Assembly: GCA_024278775.1 (NCBI GenBank)
Contig: JAJRSP010000035.1
Coordinates: 1 to 12,261, forward strand
From: Planctomycetota bacterium
Lineage (GTDB): Bacteria; Planctomycetota; Phycisphaerae; UBA1845
DNA length: 12,261 nt
Direction: 5' to 3'
The position numbers and the translations under genes are program-made. The notes beneath the pieces were generated by a model. The model was given only the letters and a program-made list of their open reading frames with translations, searched no databases and was not told the DNA's origin. Shown one piece after another: positions 3,302 through 11,542 of this stretch. The first letter of the stretch is position 1; every line of letters begins with the position of its first letter.

Positions 3302-4357
3302 ATGCCCTCACGAATCCATATCATCGCCCCGGCGGGACCATGCACGAAATTTATCGCCACCTTGGGCGTCAGCTCTGCCGAGGAACTCCTCGATGTGATT
3401 CAGAAGGCGTGCGGAGAATCGTTCACCGTCACCGGTGATACCGATTTGTTCACCGCCAAGGAGGACGAGCTTGCGGGCGGACGCACCGATGATGCGGCGC
3501 GGGCCAAGGACATCGAAACCGCCCTGGCTGATGACGACGTGGCTGCCTTGGTCACGCTTCGCGGCGGTGCGTGGTTCACGCGGATCCTGCCGCGCATCGA
3601 CTTCTCCGTGCTCGATCGGCGACGACGCCCCGTGGCGGTGTGGGGCTTTAGCGAGCTGACCACGCTGGTCAATATCGTCGCCGCGCACGCGCGGGGCCTC
3701 GGCGTCTATGACATGGGTCCGGCGTTTCTCGCCTACGGGCTGCGACGCCATGCCGAACAACATCGCGGGGCGAGCCTCCCGGACGGTGTCAGCCCGAAAG
3801 AATGGGCGGCGCAGATGTTGCGGCCCCAGTTCACGGCGTTTTTTGAAAGGGTCGTGGCGGCGCTGAGCGGATCGTCATCGGGAATCGTCATCGACGCCAC
3901 ACTCGTACGCGGCCGCATAGACGAATGCCCCACGCAAGCCGTGTTCGTTGGCGGCAACCTGACGGTGTTGTCGACGCTGATCGGGTCGAGGTATGACGCC
4001 TGCATCGCGCCGACGGACCGCTGGCTGATGATCGAAGACTTTAACGACAAGCCGGAGCGTATGGATCGCTTTCTCTCGCACCTCACGCTGGCCGGTTATT
4101 TTGAACGGTGCGCCGGTGTGCTGCTTGGCGATTTCCATTTTCAGGATCGCGATCTCATCCCCGCCGTGCTGGCGATGTTGGACTTTCACCTGCCTGGGGT
4201 GCGGCGTGTGCCCGTGCTGACCACACGCACCGTGGGGCACGCCTGGCCGATGACACCCCTGCCGCTGCACGTGAGCGCGACGCTTTCGTTTGACGACACC
4301 GGTGGGTGTCGGATTGCGTTTCCGCCGGACGCGCATACGCTGTGCCCCCAGCGATGA
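3302..4357 (+). CDS. Peptidase S66 LD-carboxypeptidase (LdcA-like, 351 aa)
   Basis: Family S66 serine peptidases remove the terminal D-alanine from muramoyl tetrapeptides during peptidoglycan recycling (some members act on microcin C-type compounds instead). Visible elements: the N-terminal strand IHIIAPAGP; LVTLRGGAWFTRILPRIDF (residues 83-101), matching the family RGGYG-LLP-D motif; GFSELTTL with the presumed nucleophile Ser117; FVGGNLTVLSTLIGS (215-229); IEDFNDKPERMDR with Glu245; AGVLLGDF; and TVGHAWPMTPLPL with His313. Thus the Ser-Glu-His triad is complete by position. Family members usually have GYSD where this one has GFSE. No signal peptide is seen, so it should be cytoplasmic. It starts 6 bases after the BtpA-family stop and its TGA overlaps the next ATG, indicating translational coupling. 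Family call is firm; exact substrate inferred. Confidence 0.9.
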   Translation: MPSRIHIIAPAGPCTKFIATLGVSSAEELLDVIQKACGESFTVTGDTDLFTAKEDELAGGRTDDAARAKDIETALADDDVAALVTLRGGAWFTRILPRIDFSVLDRRRRPVAVWGFSELTTLVNIVAAHARGLGVYDMGPAFLAYGLRRHAEQHRGASLPDGVSPKEWAAQMLRPQFTAFFERVVAALSGSSSGIVIDATLVRGRIDECPTQAVFVGGNLTVLSTLIGSRYDACIAPTDRWLMIEDFNDKPERMDRFLSHLTLAGYFERCAGVLLGDFHFQDRDLIPAVLAMLDFHLPGVRRVPVLTTRTVGHAWPMTPLPLHVSATLSFDDTGGCRIAFPPDAHTLCPQR

Positions 4358-6012
4358 CCACGACAGACCCGTCCCCAACCGCGCCGCCGCCACGACTCGA
4401 TCGGTTTCTTGCGCCGGTCCTGATTGTCGTCGCAGCCGCCATCGCCTATGCCGGTAGCTTTTCGGGTGTTTTCCTGTTCGATGATTACGGGCGCATCGTC
4501 GAGAACGAACACATTCGCCACCTCTGGCCGCCCGGACCCTACCTGAGCACGCGACGACCGCTCGTCGAGTTTTCGTTCGCGCTCAACTATGCGTTCGGTC
4601 AGCTCAGACCGTGGGGGTACCACCTTGTCAATTTGGTGATCCACATCGGTGCCGCCCTGTTGCTCTTTGGTATCATCCGCAGGACCATGTGGCTCAAGGG
4701 CGACCCCTCTCGCACGCGCTCGGCCACATGGCTGGCCTGCGTCTCAGCGATGCTCTGGGTGACCCATCCACTCACCACGCAGAGCGTGACCTACCTCATC
4801 CAGCGTGGCGAGTCGCTCATGGGGTTGCTCTATCTCGGCTGCGTATACACGTGGCTTCGCGGCGCACGATCCGACCGACCGTGGCGATGGTACACGCTGA
4901 CGATCATGGCTTGTGCGGCCGGCATGGCCGCGAAGGCCGTTATGGTGACAGCCCCCGTGGTCTTACTCGCTTTTGACCGGATGTTCCTCGCGCGGTCTTG
5001 GAAAAAACTGTTCCGCCAACGTGCGGCGTGGTATGCCGCGCTCGTGCTGACGTGGAGCGTGCTCGCGATGTGCGGCGTGGCGCAGGCGGTACTCCAATCC
5101 GGGGCTAAACCGGGGGCCAACGTCGGCTTCGCCTACCACGGCATCAGCCCGATCGAGTATGCCATGACGCAGCCGGGTGTCATACTACATTATCTCCGCC
5201 TCTGCGTCTGGCCCGATACACTCTGCCTGGACTACCAGTGGCCCGTCGCGACATCCGCAGGTCAGATCGCCGGACCGGCGTTGATTGTCCTTGCGTTGCT
5301 CGTCGCTACGGTCGGTGCTATCGCCTCTCGCCATTGGCTCGGATTTGCCGGACTGTGGTTTTTTCTAATCCTGGCTCCGACATCAAGCATCGTTCCGATC
5401 AAGGATGTCATCTTTGAACACCGCATGTACCTGCCGCTGGCGGCCGTCACCACAGTGGTCGTGTTCGTCGCGTATGCGCTTCTGCAACACCTGGGCCGAT
5501 TTTTTTCTCTTCGCGGTGGTGCGCGCTGTGCTCTGGCGATCCTGCTTTCGATCACGGCGGTCATCCCGCTCGGGCTGCGTACGATCGCCCGCAACCGCGA
5601 CTATCAATCCCCCGTCGCCATGTGGCGGAGCGTGGTCGAGGCGCGCCCCCAAAGTGACCGGGCGCACTTCGGCTTGGGTGTGGCGTTGTACCGGGAGGGC
5701 CGACTGGACGCCGCGCTGGCGAGTCTTCACCGCGCGATTGATCTCACGCCGCGCTATGCCGACGCGCACTTCAACCTCGCCGTGGTCTATACGGCCAGGG
5801 GAGACCTGGAGTCGGCGTTGGCCTCGTACCGCCGGGCCGTAGCGCTAGCCCCGGGGCGTGAAAGCTATCCGAAGGCGTTGGTGGATCTGTTGGTCTATCT
5901 GAAGCGTGTGGCGGCGGCGAAAACGGTTTTGCATGAAACCCTCAAGCACAACCCGAAATCCAACTGGGCGCGGCAACGACTGAACGAACTGGAGTCTTCC
6001 CCCATCCGGTAG
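4354..6012 (+). CDS. TMTC-like membrane protein with C-terminal TPRs (552 aa), probable GT-C glycosyltransferase
   Basis: The layout matches the bacterial relatives of eukaryotic TMTC O-mannosyltransferases. The first membrane segment is PVLIVVAAAIAYAG (21-34), followed by FLFDDYGRIVENEHI with the acidic pair Asp43-Asp44 expected of GT-C enzymes. Then come RPLVEFSFALNYAFG, the WGYHLVNLVIHIGAALLL segment, HPLTTQSVTYLIQRGESL (138-155), AAKAVMVTAPVVLLAFD (192-208), and FFLILAPTSSIVPIKD with EHRMYLPLA (355-363). Roughly ten hydrophobic segments reach residue 410. Residues about 436-537 form three TPR-like helix pairs (for example AHFGLGVALYREGRLDAALASL). The ATG at 4354 overlaps the preceding TGA as ATGA and is preferred to a GTG at 4306, which would overlap the S66 gene by 52 bases. 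It would sit in the cytoplasmic membrane and move a sugar from a lipid carrier to an acceptor; donor and acceptor cannot be read from the sequence. Confidence 0.85.
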   Translation: MTTTDPSPTAPPPRLDRFLAPVLIVVAAAIAYAGSFSGVFLFDDYGRIVENEHIRHLWPPGPYLSTRRPLVEFSFALNYAFGQLRPWGYHLVNLVIHIGAALLLFGIIRRTMWLKGDPSRTRSATWLACVSAMLWVTHPLTTQSVTYLIQRGESLMGLLYLGCVYTWLRGARSDRPWRWYTLTIMACAAGMAAKAVMVTAPVVLLAFDRMFLARSWKKLFRQRAAWYAALVLTWSVLAMCGVAQAVLQSGAKPGANVGFAYHGISPIEYAMTQPGVILHYLRLCVWPDTLCLDYQWPVATSAGQIAGPALIVLALLVATVGAIASRHWLGFAGLWFFLILAPTSSIVPIKDVIFEHRMYLPLAAVTTVVVFVAYALLQHLGRFFSLRGGARCALAILLSITAVIPLGLRTIARNRDYQSPVAMWRSVVEARPQSDRAHFGLGVALYREGRLDAALASLHRAIDLTPRYADAHFNLAVVYTARGDLESALASYRRAVALAPGRESYPKALVDLLVYLKRVAAAKTVLHETLKHNPKSNWARQRLNELESSPIR

Positions 6013-6070: not shown

Positions 6071-6111
6071 GAAAAGAAAGAGGGCGCTACGATCCGATGA
6101 TCGCAGCGCCC
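6071..6111 (-). terminator. Rho-independent terminator of the giant secreted-protein gene
   Basis: GGGCGCT (6082-6088) pairs with AGCGCCC (6105-6111), and CGATC (6090-6094) with GATCG (6099-6103), separated by one A/C mismatch, around a CGAT loop. On the minus strand the hairpin is followed by TCTTTCTTTTC, a T-rich tail as expected for an intrinsic terminator 35 bases after the stop codon. On the plus strand no T-run follows, so for the TMTC-like gene it could only act as a stabilising 3' hairpin or a weaker stop. Confidence 0.8.
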
Positions 6112-6145
6112 CCGATACTACCCCTACTTCAACGACTCGGCCGAA

Positions 6146-9100
6146 CTACGGCGTGCAATGCTGACACGCGTCACGGCAGAACCCGTCCACGCACAGACCG
6201 CCATTACATACCGTATTGGTCGTACAAGCCGTTGCGCCGCAGGTTACCGTCGAAGGGCACGGACACGGACCCGTGATGCCGGGCACGTTCGCATACGCCT
6301 CTCCGAGGAAGGCCCGCACCACGAAGTTGATATCCTTGAAGTCGATCGGACGCGCGACAAAGGGCGTGTTCGGCTGCTGCTGAACCCGCGCCTTGATCGG
6401 TGCATTTGGATCACCCAAGAACTTCGCCACGGCTGCGGAAATGTCCTTGAAGTCTGGTTGGATGTCACCCGGATTCACAAAGAACGGGTCGACAATATCA
6501 CCAAACTTTCCGGTCAGGATAACCGCCACATCCGAGTAGCAATTTTCATCTTCCAGGTCCGGACAAGATATATCCACCGCTTGAACGACATACTGAGAGC
6601 TTGGAACCAACAGGCCTCCGTACACCTGCACGACACCATCAGCAGACCAATCCCTGAAGAGCGGGTCGCACTCAAGCCGGGAAGCCTTAAACGTCAGACC
6701 TGGTGTCCCGCTGTTTTCCTCGGGGAAGTCCTGCGGTGCGCCCAGCCAACGAACCTCGCCGTCGAACGCGGGGAAGCCGTCAAGACTGACCGCGCGAACG
6801 CGGATGGCCTCGTTCGCTGCGGCTGCGACTCCTCCCGGCCGTGCGATCGTGAAGAAACGACTCTTCAAGAACGTAGAGTCCACGGCCACGACAATCGGTT
6901 TGATGATGCACTTGCAATGGAACTCGTCACGGATGCCGTCACCGTCGGTATCCGTGCCCTGAAGCACACAGGTTGTCCCCGGCGGACACACGCCTTCGCA
7001 TATCGCCGGCGGATTTGTGTTCGGCGGAGCGAGATTGACATGGCACAACTCCGGATCACCGCAATCACACTGGGAGACCACGCACGCCGCACCCGGTGGG
7101 CAGCTCACATGCGTCGGCACACACTTCTCACCTACCGCCGGGCACGCGGACTGGCTACAGGTCTGACCGTCCGCTGTCGGCTGGCACACCGTGTTGTCAG
7201 GTATGCACTTACACAGGTAATGCTCCAGACCCGCGGCATCGACGAAACCAAACAGCCTGCAAATCATACCCGGCGGACAGTCCCCGACACACACCGGACC
7301 TGTGGCATCAAACTCGAGGTGGCACATATTCGGACTGACGCAGTCACACGCCTCCACAATGGGGAAGCCACCCAGTAAACCGATCACGCTTGGTAGACAG
7401 ATCTCACCCGCGACCGGACACACGGTATCCTTACACTTGCTGCCGTCATCCATCGGGCTGCACTCCACACTGGGCGGAACACATAAGCACTCCCAATAGT
7501 CCAGTATGCCATCGTTGTCGGAATCCTTACCCGAGAGCAGACACTCCTCACCCGGCGGGCACCCACCCGTACAGAACGGCTGCTGGGCTGCCACGTCGAG
7601 TTCGATGTGACACTCATCCGGACCGACGCATTCACACTCCTGAACCACCGGAAGGATACCCGGCACCCACTGAATCACCTTGGGTTTGCAGATGTCGCCT
7701 GGTATTGGGCAAATCGTCGGTTTGCATTCAAGCCCCGTCTGATCAGGCTGACATTCCAACGTTGGCGGCACACACTCGCACTTGAACAGATCGTCGATGC
7801 CGTCGCCGTTGATGTCCAAGCCCAGAAGCTCACACGTTTCACCCGGCGGGCATGTTCCCGCACAGTAGGGCGTGTTGGCCGCGTCAAACTCGACGTGACA
7901 ATCCAAGTCCGGTTGCACGCAGTCACATTTCACGACCTTGGTCTGGCCGTTGGGGCCGATCGTTACCAACACAGGACGGCAGATCTCACCGGGGATGGGA
8001 CAGACCGTTTGCTTGCAATCCGTGGCCGTCGCGTTCGGCTCGCACACCGTACCCGTATCCGGCACGCAATCACATCCAAACGTGTCGTCGATTCCGTCTC
8101 CATCCGAGTCGATACTGCGTAGCTCGCACGTCTGCCCGGGGGGGCAGCCGCCGACACAGTGTGGACCCTGCGCTGCGTCATACTCCACGTGACAGTCGGC
8201 CACAGGATCGATGCAGTCGCACACAAGTACCACGGGCAGGGCCCCGGGCACCACCTGAATCACCTTGGGCGTACAAACCTGAGTCGGATCCGGACAGGCG
8301 ATTGGGTTACAAGCCAGCCCGTCCGGTGTGGGTCCGCAGTCGATCGTATCCGGTACGCAACCGCAATGGAACTGATCGTTGATGCCGTCACCATTCACAT
8401 CCTTTCCGAACAACGTACAGATCTGGCCCGGTGGGCAATCCCCTTCGCAGAATGGGGCCAGCGTGGTCGGGTCATAGTTCACATGGCAACTACCTCCGGT
8501 ACTGTGCGACACGCATTCGCACTCCACCACGCGCACCTGTCCGTTAACCGGATCGATTTCAATCACGATCGGTACACAGAACTCATCGACAGCGGGACAG
8601 GTGGCCGGGTTACAATACGTCTGCGTCGGATCAGGCCCGCACTCAATGCTGATGGGTACACAATCACACGACCACAAATCGCGTTCCCCGTCACCGTCCG
8701 TGTCGATGCCAAACAACTGGCATGTTTCTCCCGGCGGGCATTGTCCCACACAGAACGGACCGGTCGCCGCGTCGAACTCGACATGGCACTGCTTCTCCGG
8801 ATCCACACAGTCGCAGGCTTTGATCACCGGAGGCGTGATCGGCGACCACGAAATCGCCGTGGGGCGACAGATCTCATTCGGATACGGACAGACCGTCGGC
8901 AAACAATCGCTACCGATGTCGTTGGGAGCACACTCGGTCTGCACCGGTACGCAATCACACGTATACGCCACCGTGCCGTCGGCACTCGTAATGGTGGAGA
9001 GTTCACACGTCTCACCCGGCGGGCATACGCCCTTGCAGAACGGCTGTTGCGCCGCATCAAACTCGACGTGACACGCATCCGGGTCCACGCAGTCGCAGTC

Positions 9101-11542
9101 AATCACCATGACCTGACCCGTGAGCGGATTTACCGCGATCACGTTCGGCAAACAAATCTGCGATGGGTCAGCGCAAACCGTTTGTTCACACGAAAGCCCA
9201 TTGGCGGTCGGGGCGCAAACCGTGTTGTCCACGCAGTTACAGCACACGGTCACAATCCCGGTGACCGGATCCGTGGTGGTCGTCTCCTCACAGTGTTGCC
9301 CCACGGGACAGGCCCCGACACACGCCGGTTGCGCCGTTTGCGGATCGACTTCCACATGACACTCGTCTATGCCAACGCAGTCACAATCAACAACGCTCAC
9401 CGCACCGGTCAGTGGGTCAACGGACATACATTTCGCTCGGCAGCTATCACTGGCCACCGGGCAGCTCACCGGCGCGCAGGCCGTGGCATCTGCATTGGGC
9501 CGGCAATCCGTGGGCGGTGGATCACTACACCCGCAGGTGAGGGAGGCCCCCACCGGGACATCACCCATATGAACAGAAACCAAGTTTGTGGAAACGCCGT
9601 TCGCATGGACCACACAAACCCCCGTTTGCGGGGCCGGGCAAGTACCCTGACACGACACGATGTCACCGAGGATGGTCACCGGTCCACAGCCCGGACCCGG
9701 CGTATAACAATCGCACGTCTGAGCGATCGGGAAGCCCGAGCTCGTAATCACCGCGACAGCGGGAAGGCATAAATCATTAGCCACGCCGTTTTGACAATCC
9801 GTAAGCTGTCGGTCCTTACAGGGGTCGGGGATACCGATATCGGGAGGCAACGGGCACGCATCCGTCGTCACCGTGGGACACCCGCAGGTGACCTTCACAC
9901 CAAGAGGGACTTGCGACGCCAGAATCCCTGAGAACGTAGTGGGGAAACCGTTGTAGTGAATGACACACGGCTCCAGCGGATCGGGGCATGAGTTGACGCA
10001 CCGAATCGAGGCGTCCACCGGTGGCACACCGATCGGCTGAATATCAATCGGACCGCAATCATTACTGAAGCAGCCACATTGATCGACAATCGGGAAGGTT
10101 TGGTTGGTGACGTGCAGGCTCATCGGCCAGCACTGGTCACCGGCTATACCGCCAACACAATCATTGGGTAGGCTCTGACACCAGCTATTCGCTAGTGGAC
10201 AATTGCCGCCGGTGGATTCGCAAGAATCGTCAATTCCGTTGCCGTTGGCATCACCCGCGCAGACCGAACCGGCACCGTTGAAGGTGCCTCCCGGCAAGTC
10301 GGCGCAACATGCTTCGCTGATCTCGGTACACGACTCGTTTACGCCGTCACCATCGGCGTCGTAGCAACAGGCACCAACCGGACCACAAGTAGTACCCGGT
10401 CCTTCCCAGGTGCCTACACATTCACACTCGGTGGTTTGCATGCAGGTACCGTCCGCCAAGTTGCAACAAGCCCCCAGGACGGGGCTGCATGAACACGCCG
10501 CGGTGAGCGGAGGCAGGGGCGGCTCGCCCAACGGCGGCCGACAATCGACCAAAGTAAAGTCCAGGCAACACTGTGTGACCCCGCAGAACGTCGAGACGCC
10601 CACCGCACACGTCCCGTTGGGGCAGGGTGCCCCCTGATACAACTGGCAGTTAAAGGGACACGAGGGACAAGATACCAGATCCCCTGGGGGGGCGGCTTTG
10701 CAGCCCATCTGATAGATGCACACCGGTATAATATTCGGGAGACAGATCGTGTGGAGTACGATCGGACCCGGTGCCCCGGGTAACGTTTGGGCGCCCACCG
10801 GTGCTTCCGTCTGCACGCCCGTACCATCATCCTGCACAAACGGATGGAACTGTGACATCGGATCGAAGATCAATTCCGGGATTGTCACCTGATGAACCCA
10901 CGGTGCCCCCGCGATCTCCAGATGAAGTGGTGGCTGACCGGCCATGCCACTATCAAAAACGCGAACATCCGTGGGGTCACTCACGTTCGTGAACGTCATG
11001 CGGTACGTGATATCAAAAAAAGAATCAAACGTACCGCCGTTGTTGTGTGTTTTGATGGCGGTGAGCTGGCCCGCAGAAGGTACTGTGGGGGAGAGCTCCA
11101 CAAAAACGTCAAAAAAGGAATCCACCTGAAAATCCGGAGTGGAACCAGTAACCGTAATCGGCTGAACCGACACCAGTCGTAGCTGGACCATCTCAATTGG
11201 GATGGTGCGCATGGTTCCCGGCGGATCGGTCGGCTGAATCGGATCGCTCTGCCGTCGGATGATCGTATCCGTGTTGCCCGGTTGCGTTCCGTCGTGTAAA
11301 CCACGCAGCGGGATCACACCAGCAAACGGGTCCGACCCCGGACCGAAAAAGTCCGGCGGTATCGGACTGGTGGAAAGATCCATATGTGTCATCTCAATAG
11401 GAACGGGCGGGGAACCTTCAGGGTTTTCAAATAGAACCCACGTATTGAGAAGATCTTCGAACGGTCCGGTTTGGGCCTGTACGGCCGCCACCGGCACGAG
11501 CGCGATTCCGGCTAATGCCATAATCCATAGTTTTCTTTTCAT
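6146..11542 (-). CDS. Giant secreted cysteine-rich repeat protein with dockerin-like C-terminus (1798 aa)
   Basis: It starts with a clear signal peptide (MKRKLWIM, core ALAGIALVPVAA, cleavage after VQA). Order of parts: residues 25-260, a cysteine-poor domain with two similar strands, DSFFDVFVEL (141-150) and DSFFDITYRM (173-182); 265-356, a Cys/Pro-rich link; 357-442, GACC modules with DADGDGVNES and DANGNGIDDS loops; 448-679, two diverged Cys units; 680-1549, nine tandem units of 92-101 residues with 12-14 Cys; 1550-1689, a beta domain; 1690-1747, two DFKDI segments like a dockerin; 1758-1798, a Cys-rich tail. The Cys content implies disulfides and so a place outside the cytoplasm. The ATG at 11542 has AGAGGG 7 bases upstream; a second ATG at 11608 in frame has a stronger AAAGGAG. 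The gene is convergent with the TMTC-like gene and ends in a good terminator. Structural, adhesive or matrix roles are possible; no catalytic motif was seen. Confidence 0.9.
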   Translation of the reverse strand: MKRKLWIMALAGIALVPVAAVQAQTGPFEDLLNTWVLFENPEGSPPVPIEMTHMDLSTSPIPPDFFGPGSDPFAGVIPLRGLHDGTQPGNTDTIIRRQSDPIQPTDPPGTMRTIPIEMVQLRLVSVQPITVTGSTPDFQVDSFFDVFVELSPTVPSAGQLTAIKTHNNGGTFDSFFDITYRMTFTNVSDPTDVRVFDSGMAGQPPLHLEIAGAPWVHQVTIPELIFDPMSQFHPFVQDDGTGVQTEAPVGAQTLPGAPGPIVLHTICLPNIIPVCIYQMGCKAAPPGDLVSCPSCPFNCQLYQGAPCPNGTCAVGVSTFCGVTQCCLDFTLVDCRPPLGEPPLPPLTAACSCSPVLGACCNLADGTCMQTTECECVGTWEGPGTTCGPVGACCYDADGDGVNESCTEISEACCADLPGGTFNGAGSVCAGDANGNGIDDSCESTGGNCPLANSWCQSLPNDCVGGIAGDQCWPMSLHVTNQTFPIVDQCGCFSNDCGPIDIQPIGVPPVDASIRCVNSCPDPLEPCVIHYNGFPTTFSGILASQVPLGVKVTCGCPTVTTDACPLPPDIGIPDPCKDRQLTDCQNGVANDLCLPAVAVITSSGFPIAQTCDCYTPGPGCGPVTILGDIVSCQGTCPAPQTGVCVVHANGVSTNLVSVHMGDVPVGASLTCGCSDPPPTDCRPNADATACAPVSCPVASDSCRAKCMSVDPLTGAVSVVDCDCVGIDECHVEVDPQTAQPACVGACPVGQHCEETTTTDPVTGIVTVCCNCVDNTVCAPTANGLSCEQTVCADPSQICLPNVIAVNPLTGQVMVIDCDCVDPDACHVEFDAAQQPFCKGVCPPGETCELSTITSADGTVAYTCDCVPVQTECAPNDIGSDCLPTVCPYPNEICRPTAISWSPITPPVIKACDCVDPEKQCHVEFDAATGPFCVGQCPPGETCQLFGIDTDGDGERDLWSCDCVPISIECGPDPTQTYCNPATCPAVDEFCVPIVIEIDPVNGQVRVVECECVSHSTGGSCHVNYDPTTLAPFCEGDCPPGQICTLFGKDVNGDGINDQFHCGCVPDTIDCGPTPDGLACNPIACPDPTQVCTPKVIQVVPGALPVVLVCDCIDPVADCHVEYDAAQGPHCVGGCPPGQTCELRSIDSDGDGIDDTFGCDCVPDTGTVCEPNATATDCKQTVCPIPGEICRPVLVTIGPNGQTKVVKCDCVQPDLDCHVEFDAANTPYCAGTCPPGETCELLGLDINGDGIDDLFKCECVPPTLECQPDQTGLECKPTICPIPGDICKPKVIQWVPGILPVVQECECVGPDECHIELDVAAQQPFCTGGCPPGEECLLSGKDSDNDGILDYWECLCVPPSVECSPMDDGSKCKDTVCPVAGEICLPSVIGLLGGFPIVEACDCVSPNMCHLEFDATGPVCVGDCPPGMICRLFGFVDAAGLEHYLCKCIPDNTVCQPTADGQTCSQSACPAVGEKCVPTHVSCPPGAACVVSQCDCGDPELCHVNLAPPNTNPPAICEGVCPPGTTCVLQGTDTDGDGIRDEFHCKCIIKPIVVAVDSTFLKSRFFTIARPGGVAAAANEAIRVRAVSLDGFPAFDGEVRWLGAPQDFPEENSGTPGLTFKASRLECDPLFRDWSADGVVQVYGGLLVPSSQYVVQAVDISCPDLEDENCYSDVAVILTGKFGDIVDPFFVNPGDIQPDFKDISAAVAKFLGDPNAPIKARVQQQPNTPFVARPIDFKDINFVVRAFLGEAYANVPGITGPCPCPSTVTCGATACTTNTVCNGGLCVDGFCRDACQHCTP
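6149..6271 (-). other. Cys-rich C-terminal tail of the giant protein
   Basis: The last 41 residues hold 11 cysteines, beginning GPCPCP and ending GFCRDACQHCTP. The spacing is unlike that of the main repeat, and no sorting motif such as PEP-CTERM with a basic end is present. It may be a small disulfide knot or part of an attachment signal. Confidence 0.7.
6302..6475 (-). other. Dockerin-like double DFKDI element
   Basis: Residues 1690-1747 contain DFKDISAAVAKFLG and, 34 residues later, DFKDINFVVRAFLG, joined by a link with APIKARV. The pattern of two helices each led by an acidic loop resembles type I dockerins, which bind cohesins using calcium. The loops here are degenerate (DIQPDFKDI and ARPIDFKDI) compared with the classic DxNxDG loop. 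I recall this degenerate form, usually after the same beta domain, as common at the end of planctomycete secreted proteins. Cohesin binding is not shown. Confidence 0.7.
6476..6895 (-). other. Conserved-looking beta domain before the dockerin-like element
   Basis: Residues 1550-1689 carry RFFTIARPGG, IRVRAVSLDGFPAFDGEVRW, FKASRLECDPLFRDWSADG, VVQVYGGLLVPSSQYVVQAV and GKFGDIVDPF. These strand-like blocks with a DWS motif and a closing GDIV resemble a beta domain I associate with planctomycete secreted proteins that end in the same dockerin-like element. No function is assigned to it. Confidence 0.55.
6896..9505 (-). repeat. Nine tandem protein-coding repeats with a 12-cysteine pattern
   Basis: In gene order the units are 9505-9218, 9217-8933, 8932-8642, 8641-8339, 8338-8045, 8044-7754, 7753-7463, 7462-7187 and 7186-6896 (95-101 residues, except unit 8 with 92). 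In unit 6 the cysteines are spaced C-x8-C-x4-C-x6-C-x17-C-x-C-x6-C-x11-C-x3-C-x5-C-x17-C-x-C. Fixed words are CHVEFDA, CPPGETC and CDCVP. Units 3-7 and 9 have a DxDGDGxxD or DxNGDGxxD type loop between Cys10 and Cys11 (unit 7 has DSDNDGILD); units 1, 2 and 8 have lost it. Units 1 and 9 have extra cysteines. The units are diverged at DNA level, so the array is old or under selection, not a recent expansion. Confidence 0.92.
9506..10201 (-). repeat. Two diverged Cys units preceding the main array
   Basis: Residues 448-562 and 563-679 align with each other: both begin CPL, then DC-GG/NG-A-D-C-P, FPI with C-x-C, a CGP motif, a CP motif, C-V-H-NG, and end VP-G-TCGC. Their order of cysteine pairs parallels the main 12-Cys unit (FPI with C-x-C, a GxCP turn, a final C-x-C), suggesting a distant common origin, but they lack the CHVEFDA word and the calcium-type loop. 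Confidence 0.75.
10217..10474 (-). other. GACC-type cysteine modules with calcium-like loops
   Basis: Residues 357-442 contain two GACC starts (357 and 390), DGTCMQTTE, a GTWEGPGTTC segment, DADGDGVNES and DANGNGIDDSCE. Short modules of this look occur repeatedly in secreted proteins of planctomycetes, and this is one of the best clues to the host lineage. Function unknown; extracellular location is inferred. Confidence 0.7.

Follow-up and report, generated by a model that had tools for sequence, protein, structure and literature searches.

Tandem 12-cysteine units and a reused C-terminal module in a giant planctomycete protein, a candidate surface stalk of disulfide-locked beads

What could a planctomycete build from a protein of 1798 residues, of which 175 are cysteines (9.7%) and 202 are prolines (11.2%)? 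The question is raised by a gene in the window, a stretch of 12,261 nucleotides of contig JAJRSP010000035.1 from a Planctomycetota bacterium (assembly GCA_024278775.1). The gene lies on the minus strand, with its ATG at 11542 and its stop codon ending at 6146, and comprises 1798 codons with no internal stop; the coordinates 6146..11542 and the length of 1798 residues given by a first-pass annotation are exact. The product contains an array of 12-cysteine units, which is followed by a C-terminal module. Our favored reading, to which we give a probability of about one half, is that of an exported structural protein of the cell surface or the extracellular space, a stalk or scaffold of disulfide-locked beads. 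Among the new results, the firmer ones are the duplicated six-cysteine half within each unit, the all-or-none extra cysteine pair, the confident but unmatched fold and the reuse of the module.

The nine units follow one another at residues 680–1546. Units 2–8 contain exactly 12 cysteines each, and units 1 and 9 contain 14. The commonest cysteine spacing in the family is 8-4-6-17-1-6-11-3-5-17-1. The strict 12-cysteine pattern is matched nine times in the protein and never in 2000 residue shuffles of residues 680–1551, which bears out the nine tandem units with a strict cysteine pattern described in the first-pass annotation. Scoring of the 7983 candidates sharing most words yielded at least 28 homologues besides the window protein. 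Among the resulting 29 proteins, all 12 cysteine columns are occupied by cysteine in 164 of 164 units, pre-selected as full-length by model coverage with a score >20, split and partial units being left out. Two further positions are both cysteine in 92 of these units, both other residues in 72 and singly cysteine in none, a count whose weight is lowered by the kinship among the 164 sequences. The two positions correspond to residues 26 and 88 of unit 3, located in strands 21–30 and 86–93 of its predicted model. Within the window array the pair is present in unit 1 only, which argues for pairing within one unit.

The two halves of the unit, C1–C6 and C7–C12, are homologous to each other (hhalign local alignment, E 1.7e-7, probability 93.8%); the global alignment of the halves is weaker (E 1.8e-5, probability 54.9%). 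Scanning the window protein with a single half-unit model yields 18 halves, every one of the nine units contributing two. As judged from these sequence comparisons, the 12-cysteine unit is a duplicated six-cysteine half. Loops of the DxDGDGxxD type are found in units 3–7 and 9; the earlier claim of embedded calcium-type loops thus holds for six of the nine units and fails for units 1, 2 and 8. In the family, the loop pattern is present in units of nine of the 29 proteins and absent from the units used of the other 20. The layout of the gene is as follows.

6146..11542, minus strand: whole gene, 1798 residues, 175 cysteines; uninterrupted translation, and a dN/dS of 0.107 relative to the orthologue at L095 (721 codons compared)
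11474..11542, minus strand: probable signal peptide, residues 1–23 (MKRKLWIMALAGIALVPVAAVQA), with cleavage after the AxA-type VQA, recognized by eye
10748..11470, minus strand: N-terminal domain, residues 25–265, poor in cysteine; BLASTP identity of 48–66% to the N-termini of homologues P0003–P0006, no Pfam match
10193..10747, minus strand: cysteine-rich segment, residues 266–450, with two GACC-type repeats read directly; similar segments in many homologues
9506..10192, minus strand: two probable divergent units, residues 451–679; unit model 3.5 and 7.2 bits, BLASTP similarity to homologues
9218..9505, minus strand: unit 1, residues 680–775, 14 cysteines (extra pair), from the unit model and cysteine count
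8933..9217, minus strand: unit 2, residues 776–870, 12 cysteines, from the unit model and cysteine count
8642..8932, minus strand: unit 3, residues 871–967, 12 cysteines, calcium-type loop; the unit chosen for modelling
8339..8641, minus strand: unit 4, residues 968–1068, 12 cysteines, calcium-type loop
8045..8338, minus strand: unit 5, residues 1069–1166, 12 cysteines, calcium-type loop
7754..8044, minus strand: unit 6, residues 1167–1263, 12 cysteines, calcium-type loop
7463..7753, minus strand: unit 7, residues 1264–1360, 12 cysteines, calcium-type loop
7187..7462, minus strand: unit 8, residues 1361–1452, 12 cysteines
6905..7186, minus strand: unit 9, residues 1453–1546, 14 cysteines (a different extra pair, within the first half, A), calcium-type loop
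6149..6904, minus strand: C-terminal module, residues 1547–1798, common to many other probably exported proteins according to genome searches
6149..6274, minus strand: terminal cysteine tail, residues 1757–1798 (TGPCPCPSTVTCGATAC...CQHCTP), from alignment with the tails of 11 open reading frames (ORFs) of genome G477
6080..6113, minus strand: terminator-like stem-loop 3' of the stop codon; one found, shuffles mean 0.4

The divergent units at residues 451–679 are weak against the unit model, yet BLASTP finds them similar to unit-bearing regions of homologues (for example P0009, E 1.5e-23). The GACC-type segment gave no Pfam match in the scan of the whole protein. The sequence AGAGAGGG, noticed by eye, lies directly 5' of the ATG. 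The terminator-like element, at 6113–6080, begins 33 nucleotides past the stop and consists of a 15-pair stem with a T-rich tail.

Scanned as a whole, the protein matches no Pfam family at E<=1 and no NCBIfam model at E<=0.1, and the best hit of a PDB sequence search has an E of 0.73. Searching 45 single units against Pfam gave only scattered matches, the best being UPAR_LY6_2 (E 0.0023, in one unit of the 45). EGF, TIL, VWC and TSP3 are absent from the whole-protein result, and neither EGF nor VWC appears among the 17 families listed for the single units; TILa reaches E 0.027 in one unit of the 45 and TSP3_bac E 0.037 at best, in two units, which does not amount to membership. The earlier view that the unit belongs to no named family, these four included, agrees with the Pfam, NCBIfam and PDB sequence results. 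A unit alone (unit 3) is predicted by AlphaFold2 as a compact fold with a pLDDT of 95.0 and a pTM of 0.80. This model has no significant structural match in PDB or BFVD, the two libraries compared, and a weak or absent match there is no proof of a new fold. Neither a match to a named domain nor a failure of the unit to fold compactly, the two outcomes that would have spoken against the first-pass proposal, was thus encountered. We found no publication on the 12-cysteine unit or on the C-terminal module in the open-licence literature.

The gene is real, judging by the codon-position bias, the dN/dS ratio and the conservation of cysteines. Its closest orthologue, locus L095 of G477, is clipped by a contig end and begins inside unit 5. 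Over the 721 codons compared (units 5–9 and the module), the amino-acid identity is 73% and the differences at the three codon positions number 139, 116 and 375. The dN/dS is 0.107 with a dS of 1.81, which is saturating, and all 73 cysteines compared are kept. In the homologue P0003, each of the nine window units best matches the unit at the same place, with 59–76% identity against 44–54% for the closest counterpart in the window protein itself. The order is also kept in P0004 (8/8 after a shift of one), P0005 (8/9) and P0006 (7/9). Thus the array predates the split of these lineages and its order has been kept in the closer ones, unlike in fast-turning repeats. No striking hypervariability of loops is observed between orthologous units; together with the low dN/dS, this fits a fixed structural part.

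A contig scan for the unit with a narrow alignment found 18 loci, all of them planctomycete, in 16 assemblies, and the unit profile matches all 16. Within one order of Planctomycetota, the unit is present in 54 of 114 genomes, or in 39 of 99 when the 15 genomes first reached through unit-bearing loci are set aside. In a phylum draw around genome G003, it is found in at least two of 392 genomes (G003 itself and one weak case), a lower bound with up to 13 candidates scored per genome, so that the order-wide count is the better figure. Among small proteins of about 53–170 residues, profile A1 gave 67 candidates and none at E<=0.01 as a stand-alone unit protein. A search among medium-size proteins returned seven of 420–997 residues, one of them known already.

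The N-terminal domain is matched at E<=1e-3 only by P0003–P0006, P0017, P0021, P0022, P0025 and P0026. A domain of about 170–190 residues with a VDSFFDI motif is inserted exactly where the two halves of the unit meet in P0004, P0007, P0008, P0017, P0022, P0023, P0024 and P0028; it is also found near the N-termini of P0021, P0025, P0028 and P0029. The N-terminal domain of the window protein and this inserted domain have only a 32-column stretch around VDSFFDI in common (hhalign E 6.8e-5, probability 63.5%). P0024 in addition contains five Dictyostelium-type CTDC repeats (PF00526, E 1.2e-26).

The end of the protein had been described as dockerin-like. No dockerin model matches there; it is a C-terminal module, possibly a degenerate dockerin, common to many probably exported proteins of the order. 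No dockerin profile (PF00404, NF041540) matches the window protein at the thresholds given above, and none of 12 tails, those of the window protein and 11 sibling proteins, shows the canonical calcium-loop pattern of dockerins. A pair of motifs, PDFxDI..KFLG and IDFxDI..AFLG, recurs in the module. Against a profile of 20 dockerin loci the module reaches E 0.0032 with a probability of 9.9%, three of the 20 rows (L038, L040 and L048) being probably misframed. Ordinary PF00404 dockerins occur in the four genomes searched, and cohesin models score over their cut-offs in five of the 16 unit-bearing genomes, including G011 and G014. No NCBIfam sorting-signal model matches the module. A search for SprA_N of the type 9 secretion system (T9SS) gave nothing in four genomes, and its control was equally silent, hence the result is uninformative.

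Among the 16 unit-bearing genomes, G011 has 46 matches to the module and G014 has 19. Order-wide, it is present in 22 of 114 genomes, many of which exceed the 23 matches scored per genome. Twenty stretches retrieved from G011 and G014 contain 23 ORFs with the module, and in 21 of them no more than 10 residues separate its end from that of the ORF; 11 of the 23 terminate in the residues CP. Ten of these carriers were scanned with Pfam: four are peptidases (M43, M12B and C25 twice), two have beta-helix repeats, one has FG-GAP, one a weak BNR below the cut-off, and two have no match. Locus L087 of G014 combines four units and the module in one ORF. In G477, 15 retrieved ORFs match the module, and 11 of them align with the window protein to the last residue, a tail with conserved cysteines being common to all. 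The consensus of this tail in the close kin of the window protein is CPSxVTC...C.RCxP. Six of ten G477 ORFs scanned are peptidases (S8 twice, M6, M4 and M12B by Pfam, and the metalloprotease NF038122 by NCBIfam); the remaining four comprise one FG-GAP, one weak DUF1565 and two with no match. Its reuse across such carriers suggests that, in part of the order, the module acts as a general tag at the C-terminus of exported proteins. The two C25 peptidases, which are of the gingipain type, are L081 and L086 of G011; L086 also matches T9SS PorU-type models, far under their cut-offs.

Taken together, these observations would fit the following picture. Nine, perhaps eleven, compact beta domains would be arranged in series, each composed of two homologous six-cysteine halves and forming a disulfide-locked bead. 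Some beads would carry a calcium-type loop at the tip of a hairpin, where calcium may be bound. The chain would form a stalk or scaffold, durable and resistant to proteases, that keeps the N-terminal domain at a distance from the cell, and the last 200–250 residues or so, that is the module, would probably sort or tether all of its carriers to the same place. Since the module is common to the stalk and to secreted peptidases, we propose that the stalk and exported proteases are displayed side by side. The published background on planctomycete envelopes agrees in kind with a structural protein of the surface: these envelopes are described as containing much proline and cysteine as well as disulfides (PMC3035269), and cysteine-rich YTV proteins are reported from planctomycete wall preparations (PMC8567305).

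Several observations weigh against the stalk or scaffold. The module search gave no match in 14 of the 16 unit-bearing genomes, so the two need not go together. In the more distant homologues P0007 and P0008, only 4/8 and 5/8 full units find their match, in a shifted register. The model of three tandem units, made from a 19-row alignment, has a pLDDT of 89.8 and a pTM of only 0.42, which leaves the orientation of the beads unfixed; the first-pass idea of a disulfide-locked rod keeps its compact single domain, and a rigid rod is not demonstrated. Finally, the tag could serve release instead of anchoring.

One alternative would make the protein a disulfide-cross-linked component of a wall or sheath, the counterpart of the role presumed for cysteine-rich YTV-domain proteins in Planctomycetales. 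Its high content of cysteine and proline would suit such a role. YTV (PF07639) has no match in the window protein (Pfam, E<=1), which is therefore not a member of that family, and none in any of the 16 unit-bearing genomes, against 41 of 392 genomes in the phylum draw; this distribution also speaks for a replacement. However, the even and fully conserved cysteine counts per unit suit disulfides within beads and not cross-links between molecules, and an essential wall would be unexpected when just 54 of 114 genomes in the order have the unit. Furthermore, a diaminopimelate epimerase gene has its end in the window (Pfam), which is compatible with ordinary peptidoglycan. We consider a wall protein unlikely.

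A multi-headed binder, for example a protease inhibitor or a ligand trap, appears equally improbable to us. Here one loop per bead would protect the cell from co-exported proteases or regulate them. Multi-headed inhibitors are usually built of disulfide-rich beads in tandem, the units differ from each other while their identities are kept across species, and relatives export many peptidases bearing the same C-terminal module. What speaks against a binder is the lack of a fast-evolving loop between orthologous units, with the dN/dS of 0.107 over units 5–9 and the module, and the lack of any inhibitor-family match beyond the TILa hit mentioned above. That the protein is an adhesin, its N-terminal domain binding a surface or polymer and the units acting as a passive spacer, would suit an array of conserved length and order (in close relatives) between a separate N-terminal domain and a possibly anchoring end, but is likewise improbable, as no binding domain is recognized by Pfam at residues 25–265 and the N-terminal make-up varies among homologues.

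Returning to the stalk or scaffold, a bolder version can be put forward as a doubtful conjecture: the order would own a C-terminal sorting or tethering system, in which a cysteine-tailed module brings peptidases, dozens in each genome, to a single place on the surface, with giant 12-cysteine-unit proteins, a new disulfide fold arisen by duplication of a six-cysteine half, as the scaffold beside them. Even short of this, the unit represents a second cysteine-rich repeat family in Planctomycetota, unrelated to YTV, whose fold is predicted with confidence and has no solved-structure match here, and an uncharacterised C-terminal module marks predicted exported peptidases in many of the genomes within one order. 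If borne out, unit and module together would make a defined apparatus of the surface out of a set of "hypothetical giant proteins".

Two neighbors of the gene can be mentioned. A gene for a TPR protein (4306–6012) is its convergent neighbor and also adjoins the L095 orthologue, with 71% identity over 568 residues. An ORF of 320 residues on the minus strand (407–1369), with no Pfam match at E<=1, adjoins the diaminopimelate epimerase gene.

How does this protein compare with known systems? The predicted unit resembles the three-finger (Ly6/uPAR-like) and Argos folds in being a small disulfide-rich domain of beta-hairpins, and the weak Foldseek rows for the unit recurrently include Argos, uPAR, GPIHBP1 and cardiotoxin. 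The C-terminal signals of T9SS, myxosortase and rhombosortase systems are likewise common to otherwise unrelated exported proteins and rich in M36/M4, M6 and S8 peptidases; the window module differs in being much longer, cysteine-tailed and outside the NCBIfam sorting-signal models. A cohesin–dockerin "planctosome", with peptidases, has been proposed for freshwater planctomycetes (PMC6461901). It is similar in its large secreted modular proteins with TSP3-type calcium repeats and in its peptidases (M12B, M14) with a docking module; it differs in that the end of the window protein is not recognized as a dockerin, and the available part of PMC6461901 does not describe the 12-cysteine unit. The YTV proteins (PMC8567305) are like the window protein in belonging to Planctomycetota, in being repetitive, cysteine-rich and exported, and in being candidate envelope proteins. 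Their repeat spans 43 model positions, whereas the unit described here has about 97 residues.
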